From Acetomicrobium flavidum (lineage in GTDB: Bacteria > Synergistota > Synergistia > Synergistales > Acetomicrobiaceae), in NCBI RefSeq assembly GCF_900129645.1, contig NZ_FSQZ01000001.1, positions 1,302,001 through 1,366,000 of the forward strand: a stretch of 64,000 nt of DNA, given 5' to 3'. Position 1 is the first letter of the stretch, and each line of letters starts with the position of its first letter. The notes below the pieces were generated by a model, which saw only the letters and a list, made by a program, of their open reading frames with translations, had not been told where the DNA came from and did no database searches. Below, in pieces: positions 12,848-18,861 of this stretch. Both the position numbers and the translations under genes were made by a program.

Positions 12848-13752
12848 TGTCGTTTAAAGATCTGAACTTTTTGTTCGAAAGGGCTCAAAGTGGCAAGGTG
12901 ATGAAGATTGTCATCGCTGCTGCCGAAGACGGTGAGGTGTTGGAGGCCGTCAAGCAGGCCAGCAGCGAAGGAATCGTCGACGCGGTATTGGTCGGTGATC
13001 CCAATAAAATATCCGAAGTTGCCAAAAGCAGGAACATCGACGTCTCCTCCTTTGAGGTCATTCCGGCTACAAACGATGAAGAAGCGGCGATGAAAGCAGT
13101 TCAGGCCGTATCCTCCGGCAAGGGAGATCTATTGATGAAGGGATTCATAAAGACGTCTACCCTTCTTAAAGCGGTCTTGAACAAGGAGTGGGGCCTTAGG
13201 ACCGGCAATTTGCTGTCTCACCTGTTCTTGTTTGAGGTACCAAGGCTAGGCAAAGTTATAGGATTGACGGATGGTGGGCTAAACACTTATCCGGGGCTTC
13301 AGGAAAAGCTAGCCATAGTGAACAACGCGGTTTCCTGTTATCATGCCTTGGGGGTTGACACTCCCAAGGTCGCGGCATTGGCCGCCGTCGAAGTGGTCAA
13401 CCCCGACATGCCCTGCACCTTGGACGCCGCAGCGTTGGTTCAGATGAACAGGCGAAACCAGATAAAGGGATGCATCATAGACGGTCCTTTGGCGCTGGAT
13501 AATGCCTTGAGCGTAGAGGCGGCGAAGCACAAGGGTATTGTCTCGGAGGTGGCAGGCTCCCCAGACATACTGCTTGTTCCGGATATAGAGGCCGGCAATC
13601 TCCTTGGAAAGGTAATCTTGTTCATGGCAAACGGTGCGGGTGCGGGCGTCGTGTTGGGCGCAAAGGTTCCGGTGGTGCTGACCAGCCGTGGAGATACTGC
13701 CAGGACGAAGGCGCTGTCAATAGCCTTGGGTGCGGTCTTGGCTAAAAATTAA
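12847..13752 (+). CDS. ptb: Phosphate butyryltransferase (first copy)
   Basis: A 301-residue phosphate acyltransferase that converts butyryl-CoA and phosphate to butyryl-phosphate and CoA, feeding the adjacent kinase. Family features include LLMKGFIKTSTLLKAVL and a C-terminal ANGAGAGVVLGAKVPVVLTSR. Its central third (DNA 13360-13556) is almost identical to the second ptb copy, while both flanks are strongly diverged. This is the signature of recent gene conversion. It shares a one-base overlap with buk. Confidence 0.9.
   Translation: MSFKDLNFLFERAQSGKVMKIVIAAAEDGEVLEAVKQASSEGIVDAVLVGDPNKISEVAKSRNIDVSSFEVIPATNDEEAAMKAVQAVSSGKGDLLMKGFIKTSTLLKAVLNKEWGLRTGNLLSHLFLFEVPRLGKVIGLTDGGLNTYPGLQEKLAIVNNAVSCYHALGVDTPKVAALAAVEVVNPDMPCTLDAAALVQMNRRNQIKGCIIDGPLALDNALSVEAAKHKGIVSEVAGSPDILLVPDIEAGNLLGKVILFMANGAGAGVVLGAKVPVVLTSRGDTARTKALSIALGAVLAKN
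13360..13556 (+). repeat. Gene-conversion tract, copy A (in ptb 1)
   Basis: A 197-bp block that matches 14295-14491 with three differences, all at third codon positions (GAA/GAG, GCC/GCT, CTG/CTC). The encoded 65 or so residues are identical between the two genes, although the surrounding sequence is only moderately similar. Confidence 0.9.
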
Positions 13753-13775: not shown

Positions 13776-14699
13776 TTGAAACAGTTACGTTCTCTAACAG
13801 AGCTTTTGTCCTATGCGAGGGAAGTAGGTCCCAAAAGGGTAAGTGTTGCTTTGGCCGAGGACAGCGAGGTCTTGGAGGCTGTCGATCATGCCCGCAAAGA
13901 GGGCATCGCGGATTGCATACTTGTCGGAAATACCGACAAGATGAAGAGCATTGCCGAAGAGATTGGGGTCGACCTTTCTAAGTTCCAGCTGGAAGACGTT
14001 CGCGGCAGCGAAGAAAGTGTTGCCCTTGCGGCAGTGGAGATAGTTTCATCAGGCAAGGCCGATATACTCATGAAGGGCATGATATCGACTGCCAATTTCT
14101 TAAGAGGCGTGTTGAACAAGGAAAAGGGATTGAGGACCGGCTCACTGCTTTCGCACGTTTATATCCATGAGGTTGAAGGTCTGGATCGCATTCTTTTTGT
14201 TTGCGACCCGGCATTCAACATAGCTCCCGACCTTAACGCCAAGGTCAAGATCGTCGAAAACACCGTGGAGTTGGCCAAGTCCTTTGGAGTAGAAACTCCC
14301 AAGGTCGCGGCATTGGCCGCCGTCGAGGTGGTCAACCCCGACATGCCCTGCACCTTGGACGCTGCAGCGTTGGTTCAGATGAACAGGCGAAACCAGATAA
14401 AGGGATGCATCATAGACGGTCCTTTGGCGCTCGATAATGCCTTGAGCGTAGAGGCGGCGAAGCACAAGGGTATTGTCTCGGAGGTGGCAGGGCATGCCGA
14501 AGTCTTATTGGTTCCCGACATCGAGGCGGGCAATATCTTCGCAAAGGGGATAGTTTACCTGACGAAGAACAGGACGGCAGGCTTGGTCCTGGGAGCCAAA
14601 GCGCCGATAGTGCTTACAAGCCGTGCCGACAGCGCTGAGACGAAGCTGTTGTCCATAGCCTCTGCTGTGGCATTGGCTGCCTATAAAGGTCGAAAATAG
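13776..14699 (+). CDS. ptb: Phosphate butyryltransferase (second copy)
   Basis: A 307-residue paralogue of the upstream gene, starting at a TTG with AGGGGG nine bases upstream. It keeps the family segments LMKGMISTANFLRGVLNKEKGLRTGSL and LVLGAKAPIVLTSR. Except for the converted middle tract it differs from copy 1 throughout, which suggests a different acyl preference (for example straight versus branched chains; inference). It lies 23 bases after ptb 1 and 14 bases before the second kinase start. Confidence 0.9.
   Translation: MKQLRSLTELLSYAREVGPKRVSVALAEDSEVLEAVDHARKEGIADCILVGNTDKMKSIAEEIGVDLSKFQLEDVRGSEESVALAAVEIVSSGKADILMKGMISTANFLRGVLNKEKGLRTGSLLSHVYIHEVEGLDRILFVCDPAFNIAPDLNAKVKIVENTVELAKSFGVETPKVAALAAVEVVNPDMPCTLDAAALVQMNRRNQIKGCIIDGPLALDNALSVEAAKHKGIVSEVAGHAEVLLVPDIEAGNIFAKGIVYLTKNRTAGLVLGAKAPIVLTSRADSAETKLLSIASAVALAAYKGRK
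14295..14491 (+). repeat. Gene-conversion tract, copy B (in ptb 2)
   Basis: The partner of 13360-13556 in the second ptb gene, in the same orientation and 935 bp downstream. Direct repeats this close could also recombine to delete one ptb and fuse the other. Confidence 0.9.
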
Positions 14700-16358: not shown

Positions 16359-16874
16359 TTATTTTATCAAGCTTTTTAGGACGTTTAAGGCAGCATCGTA
16401 GTCCGGCTGATGTGTCGCTTCTGGCACTATCTGTAGGTAGCGTATGGTATCGTCCTTGTCCACTATGAACACGGCCCTTGCGAGGAGCCTGAGCTCTTTC
16501 ATCAAAACCCCCCAATTGGTCCCAAAGGAGGCATCCCGATGATCGGATAGCGCGATGACCTTCTTTATGTTGCCGCTGGTGCAGAACCTCTTTATCGCAA
16601 AGGGTAAGTCCATGGATATGTTTAATACCACTACGTCTTCTGGCAGTGACGTGGCCTCGTCTTCAAACTTGTGGGCCTGCATGTCGCATACCGGAGTATC
16701 CAACGAAGGCGTGACGGATATGACCTTGATCTTGTTTGCAAAGTCCGATTTTTTGACCTCTCGCATGTCTTGATCCAAGACAACAAAATCCGGGGCTTTA
16801 TCCCCAACCTTTAATTCGGGACCTATCAAGGTCACGGGATTGCCGTGCATGGTGACTATTCCCCTTCTCTCCAA
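16359..16874 (-). CDS. tpx: Thiol peroxidase
   Basis: An atypical 2-Cys peroxiredoxin that reduces lipid and hydrogen peroxides using thioredoxin. The peroxidatic cysteine is in TPVCDMQAHKF and the resolving cysteine in RFCTSGNIKKV, the standard Tpx pair. I start it at TTG 16874, seven bases after GGAGGT. This gives the family N terminus MERRGIVTMHGNPVTLIG and 171 residues. The ATG at 16910 would add an unconserved extension. It is an expected oxygen-defence enzyme in an anaerobe. Confidence 0.9.
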   Translation of the reverse strand: MERRGIVTMHGNPVTLIGPELKVGDKAPDFVVLDQDMREVKKSDFANKIKVISVTPSLDTPVCDMQAHKFEDEATSLPEDVVVLNISMDLPFAIKRFCTSGNIKKVIALSDHRDASFGTNWGVLMKELRLLARAVFIVDKDDTIRYLQIVPEATHQPDYDAALNVLKSLIK

Positions 16875-16966
16875 TTGAATCACCTCCACGTTATGTGAAT
16901 TCCAATTCAAGTTAAATTATAAAGGTTTTTAATTAAATGGTCCAGGCAAATTTCTTGCATACCCAC

Positions 16967-16995
16967 TTGACGAAAGCGCAGGACTTAAGTTAAAT
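16967..16995 (+). promoter_or_regulatory. Promoter of the cys leader and cysE-cysK
   Basis: -35 TTGACG (16967-16972), 17 bases, -10 TTAAAT (16990-16995). It is placed so that transcription starts about 30 bases before the tri-cysteine uORF. Confidence 0.6.
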
Positions 16996-17034
16996 TTAAA
17001 CTCAGAATTAAGCTTAGGAGCAAGGGAGATAGAA

Positions 17035-17091
17035 ATGGGTAAGAATAGCTTGTTTTTCGGCGTTTGTTGTTGTCGGTGGATCGCTTCCTGA
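17035..17091 (+). CDS. Cysteine leader peptide (uORF with three Cys codons)
   Basis: An 18-codon reading frame MGKNSLFFGVCCCRWIAS, with three consecutive TGT codons at 17065-17073 and a good ribosome site (AAGGGAG, six bases upstream). Immediately after the Cys codons a 9-bp hairpin begins, and a Rho-independent terminator follows before cysE. This is the arrangement of ribosome-stalling attenuators: low cysteine would stall the ribosome on TGT TGT TGT and change the downstream fold. Poly-cysteine leader peptides are known from mycobacteria. This one has its own Shine-Dalgarno sequence. The role is inferred. Confidence 0.65.
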   Translation: MGKNSLFFGVCCCRWIAS

Positions 17092-17115
17092 TCTACCGCG
17101 GCGTGGTGGCCGCGG
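17074..17115 (+). promoter_or_regulatory. Competing hairpins in the cys leader
   Basis: Hairpin 1 is CGGTGGATC/GATCTACCG (17074-17082, 17090-17098), with one G-T pair and a 7-nt loop. Hairpin 2 is CCGCGG/CCGCGG (17096-17101, 17110-17115). They share bases 17096-17098, so they are mutually exclusive. The segment AAAGCC at 17135-17140 can pair with GGCTTT in the terminator's 5' arm. Confidence 0.5.
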
Positions 17116-17184
17116 CAATATGAGCGCTGTGGCCAAAGCCGAAGACAAGCTTTAATTATATTACAAAGATAGATAGACCTGTAT

Positions 17185-17225
17185 AAGAGGGCTTTCGCGC
17201 CATAGCGAAAGCCCTCTTAATTTTT
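17185..17225 (+). terminator. Attenuator terminator before cysE
   Basis: A perfect 14-bp stem (arms 17185-17198 and 17205-17218, loop GCCATA) is followed by AATTTTT. It ends about 27 bases before the cysE ATG, with only a ribosome site between. No promoter fits there, so it must work as a conditional terminator. Confidence 0.85.
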
Positions 17226-17251
17226 GAGTTTGCAGGAGGTATTGATAGACG

Positions 17252-17944
17252 ATGGGGAAGATATGGCAAACCGTAAAATCTGATTTTCAGGCTGTTAAGG
17301 ATAGAGACCCCGCCATACCCGACGGACTTAGAGGATTCTTTGAGGTTATCTTGTGCACGCCGGGCTTTCAGGCGATACTTGCGCATAGGTTAATACATTT
17401 TTTACATACAAGGCTTCGCATACCCATCTTGCCCAGGTTTTTGGGGTTGATCGTTCGCTGGTGGACCGGAATAGAGATACATCCGGGAGCACAAATAGGT
17501 AAAGGGGTATTTATAGACCATGGCATGGGAGTGGTGATAGGCGAGACCGCCATCGTGAAGGACAACGTAACGTTATTTCATGGAGTAACGCTGGGCGGTA
17601 CCGGCAAGGAAAAGGGGAAACGCCACCCCACCGTCGAGGAGGGAGCCTTCATAGGTGCGGGAGCTAAAATACTTGGGAATATAACTATCGGCAAAAATTC
17701 CAAGATCGGTGCCGGCAGCGTGGTCGTAAAGGATGTTCCGCCGGACAGCACTGTCGTTGGAATTCCTGCCTTCATGGTCAAGCATAAGGGATTTAAGCTG
17801 CGCGAAGCCACGGCTAATGTCCAGTTGGCGAATACCATTTTGAGGCGAATAGAGGAGATGGAACAGGAGCTGAAGCTGTTGAAAGAGGAGCTTAGAAATG
17901 TGCAAGATCAGCTCAGCATACAAAATAAACAGGAGGTTGCATGA
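17252..17944 (+). CDS. cysE: Serine O-acetyltransferase
   Basis: Makes O-acetyl-L-serine from serine and acetyl-CoA, the first step of cysteine synthesis. The left-handed beta-helix has hexapeptide repeats from residue 75 on, with the catalytic segment IDHGMGVVIGETA and FHGVTLGGTGK. The C-terminal 40 residues are a charged coiled helix (RRIEEMEQELKLLKEEL) rather than the classic CysE tail. GCAGGAGGT precedes the ATG. The last four bases overlap cysK (ATGA). Expression is probably set by the Cys-codon leader. Confidence 0.93.
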   Translation: MGKIWQTVKSDFQAVKDRDPAIPDGLRGFFEVILCTPGFQAILAHRLIHFLHTRLRIPILPRFLGLIVRWWTGIEIHPGAQIGKGVFIDHGMGVVIGETAIVKDNVTLFHGVTLGGTGKEKGKRHPTVEEGAFIGAGAKILGNITIGKNSKIGAGSVVVKDVPPDSTVVGIPAFMVKHKGFKLREATANVQLANTILRRIEEMEQELKLLKEELRNVQDQLSIQNKQEVA

Positions 17945-18861
17945 TGATATCAGTGGATGATGTTTTCTTTAGAAAGTTAATCGGCCGCACCCCTTCAGTT
18001 AAATTATCACACGTCAAGGGGAATGTACTTTTGAAGCTTGAGGGCAGCAACGTGGGAGGGTCCATAAAGGACAGGGCTGTATGGGGAATGCTCAAGCATT
18101 TTGAGCGTTCCGGGAAACTGAAAGAAAATGCCGTCATCGTTGAACCAACCTCGGGCAATACAGGTATCGCCCTGGCTATGTTTGGAGCTGCCTTGAACCT
18201 CCAAGTCATACTGACCATGCCTGAATCCATGTCCCTGGAAAGGAGGGCAACTTTAGCCGCCTACGGAGCAAAACTAGAGCTGACGCCTGCGTCAGAGGGC
18301 ATGGCAGGAGCCATAAGGAGGGCCGAAGAGATAGTGAAAGAACTTCCCGGCGCAGTCATGCTCGACCAGTTCTCAAATCCCGGCAATCCCTGGGCCCACA
18401 TGGTTACGACCGCGCCGGAAATAATCATGGAAACGGAGGGCCGGGAGATAGCGGCCTTTGTCGCTGGAGTAGGGACGGGAGGCACTTTGACGGGTATCGG
18501 CAAGGTACTAAAGAAGGTATTTCCTGACATGCAGGTCATTGCCGTAGAACCCGCCGGATCCTCTGTACTAAGCGGAGGTTGCAGCGGTCCTCACTTAATA
18601 CAGGGCATAGGAGCCGGCTTCGTGCCTAAAAATCTGGACCTCTCTCTAGTTGATAGGGTCATAAAGGTTTCAGATGAGGATGCCTTGGAGATGACGAGAT
18701 ATTTAGCGCGAAGCAAAGGCCTGTTTTTGGGCATCTCCAGCGGTGCAAATGTCTGGGCGGCAATGGAGGTCTTAAAAGGTCTGAAGGAAGGTTCTATTGT
18801 GGCGACCGTTGCACCCGATAGAGGCGACAAGTATTTGAGCACTCCCGCGTATAGGGGATGA
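17941..18861 (+). CDS. cysK: Cysteine synthase (O-acetylserine sulfhydrylase)
   Basis: A PLP enzyme of fold type II that makes cysteine from O-acetylserine and sulfide. The PLP lysine is K43 in GGSIKDR. The phosphate and substrate loops are PTSGNTGI (69-76) and GVGTGGTLTG. Its 306 residues fit CysK/CysM. It is translationally coupled to cysE, forming the two-step pathway and possibly the cysteine synthase complex. CysM (thiosulfate-using) cannot be excluded. Confidence 0.92.
   Translation: MMISVDDVFFRKLIGRTPSVKLSHVKGNVLLKLEGSNVGGSIKDRAVWGMLKHFERSGKLKENAVIVEPTSGNTGIALAMFGAALNLQVILTMPESMSLERRATLAAYGAKLELTPASEGMAGAIRRAEEIVKELPGAVMLDQFSNPGNPWAHMVTTAPEIIMETEGREIAAFVAGVGTGGTLTGIGKVLKKVFPDMQVIAVEPAGSSVLSGGCSGPHLIQGIGAGFVPKNLDLSLVDRVIKVSDEDALEMTRYLARSKGLFLGISSGANVWAAMEVLKGLKEGSIVATVAPDRGDKYLSTPAYRG

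Follow-up and report, generated by a model that had tools for sequence, protein, structure and literature searches.

The window, by which we mean the whole analysed stretch of 64,000 nucleotides of DNA from the anaerobic bacterium Acetomicrobium flavidum, carries on its forward strand cysE (serine O-acetyltransferase, 17252–17944; NCBIfam TIGR01172 above cut-off) and cysK (cysteine synthase A, 17941–18861; NCBIfam TIGR01139 above cut-off), which overlap by 4 nt and are preceded by a structured leader. The promoter TTGACG-N17-TTAAAT named in an earlier note on this DNA was read at 16967–16995 of the forward strand, with TTGACG at 16967–16972, a 17-nt spacer and TTAAAT at 16990–16995; TAAATT with an 18-nt spacer (promoter 16967–16996) is an alternative −10 element and is the form common to the sister species, TTGAC(G/T)-N17/18-TAAATT being present at the corresponding position in each of the other five Acetomicrobium genomes. 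A purine-rich Shine-Dalgarno region, GGAGCAAGGGAG (17017–17028; sister species have GGAGG or GGAG in the equivalent position), lies upstream of an 18-codon open reading frame (uORF, 17035–17091) consisting of ATG, 17 further codons and TGA. It encodes the peptide MGKNSLFFGVCCCRWIAS and contains TGT TGT TGT at 17065–17073, so that the short frame with its own ribosome site and three cysteine codons was found as the earlier note had described it. Directly 3′ of the cysteine codons, at 17074, begins the expected hairpin, CGGTGGATC/GATCTACCG, and the competing CCGCGG helix was also recovered, CCGCGGC (17096–17102) being complementary to GCCGCGG (17109–17115) within GC-rich segments spanning 17096–17134. 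The intrinsic terminator (17184–17225) has its T-run as claimed, with a stem of 15 bp (17184–17198 with 17205–17219) instead of the 14 bp first given, a 6-nt loop and ATTTTT. Between the T-run and the cysE ATG at 17252 there are 26 nt, containing the cysE Shine-Dalgarno sequence GGAGG (17235–17239), where the earlier note had seen no room for another promoter. The folding energy of the whole leader is far lower than that of shuffled sequence (z = −7.0). A gene that by eye is peroxiredoxin-like (16359–16910, reverse strand) diverges from the cysE leader and has a promoter-like TGGACC-N17-TATAAT at 16944–16916 on the same reverse strand. Elsewhere in the window, a 211-nt block is repeated with 97% identity (13346–13556 and 14281–14491) in two tandem genes named by eye as phosphate butyryltransferase-like; the pair otherwise differs outside the block, and the sequence suggests recent gene conversion.

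CysE was searched in 188 Synergistota genomes, a match at E < 1e-40 being taken as an ortholog; 59 of the 188 carried an orthologous cysE, and the leaders of all 59 were inspected. A short cysteine-rich uORF was present upstream of cysE in 56 of the 59 loci, with cysteine runs of the forms CCC, CCCC, CIC, CACC and CC, and 55 of the 56 leaders could be assigned a terminator, about 14 of them by hand or eye (the 56 leaders and the 56 genomes are not identical sets, one identical leader having been dropped and a second copy in genome G036 added). Loss of the cysteine codons or uORF in relatives had been named as the result that would count against an attenuator, and they are retained in nearly all leaders. 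Flanking residues vary, those upstream of the cysteine run not being conserved, and the uORF and its cysteine codons are the most conserved elements of the leader. With the strict definition of at least three Cys in four residues, 50 of the 56 related leaders have the uORF, compared with 0.4% of dinucleotide-shuffled sequences. The three loci without a leader belong to genome G009 and to both genomes of family f11, which lies outside the order; in G009 and the outgroup genomes a promoter-like site stands directly before cysE. In family f3, genus g3, a cysE from a different subfamily lies immediately after cysK, and no leader was seen there. Weak model matches in two genomes (G018 and G073) were not accompanied by a Cys uORF under the filter used. 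No second copy of the leader was found in the Acetomicrobium genome, where the best other match had E = 0.36. Contig 4 of G036 holds a second, diverged Cys leader (L138, MARLSVRENCCCRWIVN) upstream of a truncated cysE with unrelated sequence adjoining; it may be a duplicate in decay or reflect a mixture of strains. A scan of 84,980 species with the strict DNA pattern returned 58 stretches, with convincing matches only in Synergistota; matches outside the phylum were taken as chance, being without a short reading frame that has a start and a stop soon after the cysteine codons, with one or two doubtful exceptions (L071, L075). A looser pattern of three cysteine codons, run over the phylum, matched nearly everywhere and was uninformative.

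The earlier note had asked for covarying stems among related cysE leaders, and these were found for more helices than it had drawn. Segment 1 (17074–17083) pairs with the 5′ part of segment 2 (17089–17102), the 3′ part of which, CCGCGGC, pairs with segment 3 (17107–17116); segment 3 pairs alternatively with segment 4 (17125–17134). For helices 1:2 and 3:4, 25 leaders were fitted to a model of these helices (alignment A3, which leans towards the model), and 9 of 18 pairs showed two-sided changes, compared with 4.6 in shuffles, none of 500 of which reached 9, and at most 4 in slid controls; the MAFFT alignment A2 gave the same trend, with 4 two-sided pairs, equalled by 52 of 500 shuffles. Helix 2:3, which is no part of the A3 model, was formed in 92% of cells, 13 of them changed on both sides, a count reached by none of 500 shuffles, with slid controls giving at most 3; it was also examined on A2. 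Two mutually exclusive folds 3′ of the regulatory codons, 1:2 with 3:4 on one side and 2:3 on the other, are thus both conserved, each set of helices covarying. A further, long-range helix is predicted between segment 0 (17045–17062), inside the uORF, and segment 0′ (17134–17153), after segment 4, at −20.8 kcal/mol, closing a junction that encloses 1:2 and 3:4. Uninterrupted runs of 10–13 bp occur in this helix in six leaders (L001, L002, L006, L010, L022 and L023). Its duplex energy against shuffles was borderline (p = 0.047), and this comparison was replaced by a non-cognate control, in which cognate pairs came out ahead of non-cognate ones (Fisher p about 0.003); the predicted 0:0′ helix is supported statistically and is less certain than 1:2, 3:4 and 2:3.

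An uORF with tandem codons for the amino acid of its operon (CCC before cysE-cysK) and an intrinsic terminator between the uORF and the first gene are both in place, as in an attenuator, and with the conservation and the covarying helices they make it highly likely that cysE-cysK is under a ribosome-mediated transcription attenuator sensing charged tRNA-Cys. As far as the sequence can tell, the leader very probably lets transcription go on only under cysteine shortage. In the following scheme the stalling, the termination and the cysteine response are inferred. A ribosome would translate the uORF behind RNA polymerase. With Cys-tRNA in short supply, it would stall on the cysteine codons and cover segments 0 and 1, so that 2 would pair with 3, leaving the strand 4/0′ available to capture the terminator 5′ arm, whereupon transcription would enter cysE-cysK. 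With Cys-tRNA plentiful, the ribosome would reach the stop codon, at the edge of segment 2, and depart; 0:0′, 1:2 and 3:4 would then form, the antiterminator strand would be locked, the terminator would fold and transcription would stop. The attenuator proposed in the earlier note is in this way supported by conservation and covariation, and its description is enlarged by helix 3:4, the long-range 0:0′ pairing and a separate antiterminator strand.

That last element, for which segment 0′ with AAAGCC (17135–17140) is the candidate, is clear in some relatives and weak in Acetomicrobium. Apart from segment 0, segment 0′ may tentatively pair with the terminator 5′ arm by 6–8 bp, and in Acetomicrobium this pairing (AAAGCC:GGCTTT plus 2 bp) was no better than in shuffled sequence (p about 0.5); combined tests over the leaders were borderline (p = 0.05–0.07, the duplex energy against shuffles giving p = 0.07). 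The same uORF and terminator could therefore work with no antiterminator hairpin, the position or positions of the ribosome acting on the 0:0′/3:4 fold or on polymerase pausing, and since 0:0′ reaches into the uORF just before the cysteine codons, a stalled ribosome would block it. We regard this version as unlikely but as the most serious of the alternatives. Against it, helix 2:3 covaries across the family, and perfect antiterminator complements of 8–9 bp exist in four distant relatives (L022, L025, L027 and L028), such as AAAGCCCGC:GCGGGCTTT in L022 and L025 and GGGCGGACC:GGTCCGCCC in L027. Leaders were also folded with a ribosome mask placed on the cysteine codons (stalled) or on the stop codon (released), equilibrium folding ignoring kinetics. 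With the ribosome stalled, the terminator 5′ arm was more often paired than with it released in 20 of 26 genus-level groups (Wilcoxon p = 0.0009 against shuffles); compared with ribosome-free RNA, the stalled state again showed more pairing in 20 of 26 (p = 0.0003). The groups are not phylogenetically independent, so these p values are rough. Minimum-energy folds of L022 and L029 switch from 2:3 with the antiterminator when stalled to 1:2, 3:4 and 0:0′ when free. For Acetomicrobium (L001–L005) the stalled and at-stop states did not differ, only stalled versus free RNA doing so; in L001 the paired fraction of the terminator arm was 0.82 at the stop, 0.77 stalled and 0.54 ribosome-free. Taken over the family, these models give good support to a switch in which a stalled ribosome would favour antitermination, and statistical support to the antiterminator pairing; for the Acetomicrobium flavidum leader the switch is plausible.

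The cysteine codons are followed by Arg-Trp codons, and CCCRW is conserved in several families; since cysteines bind metals and can be oxidised, the nascent CCCRW could be an arrest peptide sensing thiol, metal or oxidative stress instead of the supply of Cys-tRNA. This is improbable. The Arg-Trp codons are part of segment 1 and form the covarying helix 1:2, for which reason we reject Arg-Trp as an arrest peptide; in L022 and L025, GGTGGA in segment 1 has become GGCAGA (Arg-Trp to Arg-Gln), segment 2 is altered to match and CCC is kept, and elsewhere RQ, GR, ME, PE or TE replaces Arg-Trp with the cysteine run retained. The variable residues upstream of the run also argue against arrest. Because the stem of the Arg-Trp codons covaries while Cys stays, the cysteine codons look selected as codons and the rest as RNA, and sensing of cysteine supply is favoured since the downstream genes, cysE-cysK, make cysteine.

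A riboswitch or Cys T-box read directly by its ligand or tRNA, the uORF being incidental, is a very improbable reading. In its favour, T-boxes are present in this genome and in most of its relatives. No Rfam family matched the locus above its gathering score, nor did any reach the gathering score in five relatives; there was no credible match at the locus even at a low threshold, and the uORF and cysteine codons remain the most conserved part of the leader. The T-box model in particular gave no match at the cysE leader, though it found three T-boxes elsewhere in the genome. T-boxes are thus present in Synergistota, yet cysE has a leader peptide. The three T-box matches include G000:C1:679304-679534, and one of the three lies just upstream of a PALP-family gene. 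That the terminator is constitutive, the uORF a product of chance and cysE transcribed from another promoter is hardly credible, given the 26 nt between T-run and ATG and a uORF conserved at 56 of 59 loci against 0.4% of shuffles.

The uORFs fall into more than one initiation type. In 21 leaders a Shine-Dalgarno site was present, and 28 of the 56 uORFs look leaderless (L016, L017, L019, L020, L026–L028, L136, L147–L149, L151, L153–L166, L168 and L169), their ATG lying 6–10 nt, mostly 6–7, after a −10 box (usually TAGAAT, TAAAAT or TACAAT) that has a −35 box at 16–18 nt; from this closeness of the ATG to the promoter elements a leaderless mRNA is predicted. The cysteine codons of the uORFs were TGT 152 times and TGC 40 times, compared with 7 and 47 in the cysE genes inspected (p = 4e-19, which is too optimistic because related genes were counted as independent), and the preference for TGT holds even at 68% GC. 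Selection for slow decoding of UGU would account for this bias; alternatively, U-rich sequence may be selected at the RNA level. We lean slightly towards an undescribed, order-wide family of cysteine attenuators that are led by a Shine-Dalgarno sequence or leaderless according to the family, with UGU selected for slow decoding. If so, such a two-way family would be a natural experiment on leaderless initiation driving attenuation, both versions within one order allowing a direct comparison of the modes of leader-peptide initiation. In five leaders (L022, L025, L133, L021 and L167) a second frame with its own Shine-Dalgarno sequence lies between the terminator and cysE. It is cysteine-rich in the first four (ESGCGCC, CPCTCKCK, CDCIYCC) and contains two Cys in L167. 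In L022, L025 and L133 the frame continues in register into cysE, which gives a cysteine-rich N-terminal extension, and that of L021 overlaps cysE out of register. The cysteine-rich second frame is possibly a second level of control.

The remark in the earlier note that no such element is described for this kind of organism agrees with our negatives, which are not proof: no similar element for Synergistota was found in Rfam or in the open-access literature searched, and the main text of PMC6429828, which surveys structured RNAs in the synergistete Thermovirga lienii, has no mention of cysteine.

Ribosome-mediated attenuation of amino-acid operons is known from the trp, his, leu and pheA leaders of Proteobacteria, with which the cysE leader has in common a uORF with many codons for the regulated amino acid, alternative helices, an intrinsic terminator and a biosynthetic operon, with no sequence similarity by Rfam. 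In the his leader, A:B, C:D and E:F alternate with B:C and D:E, and the order 1:2, 3:4, 5:6 versus 2:3, 4:5 in the cysE leader matches that of E. coli his. Two points refine the earlier note: the architecture is nearer to his than to trp, and the antiterminator pairing in Acetomicrobium is weak. Unlike the Trp and His leaders, the cysE leader concerns cysteine, belongs to another phylum and has the additional predicted 0:0′ helix enclosing 1:2 and 3:4. The cysE T-box of Firmicutes senses the charging of tRNA-Cys and controls cysE by termination through direct binding of tRNA, with no uORF; the present leader is likewise proposed as a sensor of tRNA-Cys charging, but one based on a uORF. The uORFC-8-2 motif of Rhodobacterales, described only before cysS (Cys-tRNA synthetase), has two Cys codons with UGC dominant (PMC8632094) and shares with our leaders a conserved uORF, tandem Cys codons, stems, an intrinsic terminator and the inferred logic; the Synergistota leaders stand before cysE-cysK, usually have three or four Cys codons with UGU dominant and form more helices, and are set apart from it by their location. 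Polycysteine leader frames precede sulfur genes in Mycobacterium, Propionibacterium acnes and Bifidobacterium, where no conserved terminator hairpin was found (PMC1262725), and the mycobacterial ones are leaderless attenuators (Canestrari et al. 2020, as cited in PMC13236596). Common to these and to the cysE leaders is a short frame before sulfur genes with a string of Cys codons close to its stop, and the leaderless frame of mycobacteria apparently recurs in half of the Synergistota uORFs; the Acetomicrobium uORF, having a 5′ UTR and a Shine-Dalgarno sequence, differs in this respect. The Synergistota leaders, in another phylum and with other targets, have a strong intrinsic terminator and covarying helices, and so unite with the Cys codons features whose combination is absent from the actinobacterial leaders in PMC1262725. 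Judged from its architecture, the element is almost certainly a cysteine attenuator of a known general type; as far as Rfam and the literature searched show, it appears to be a new RNA family in Synergistota, and it offers a mechanism of cysteine control to a phylum with no such attenuator described in that literature.
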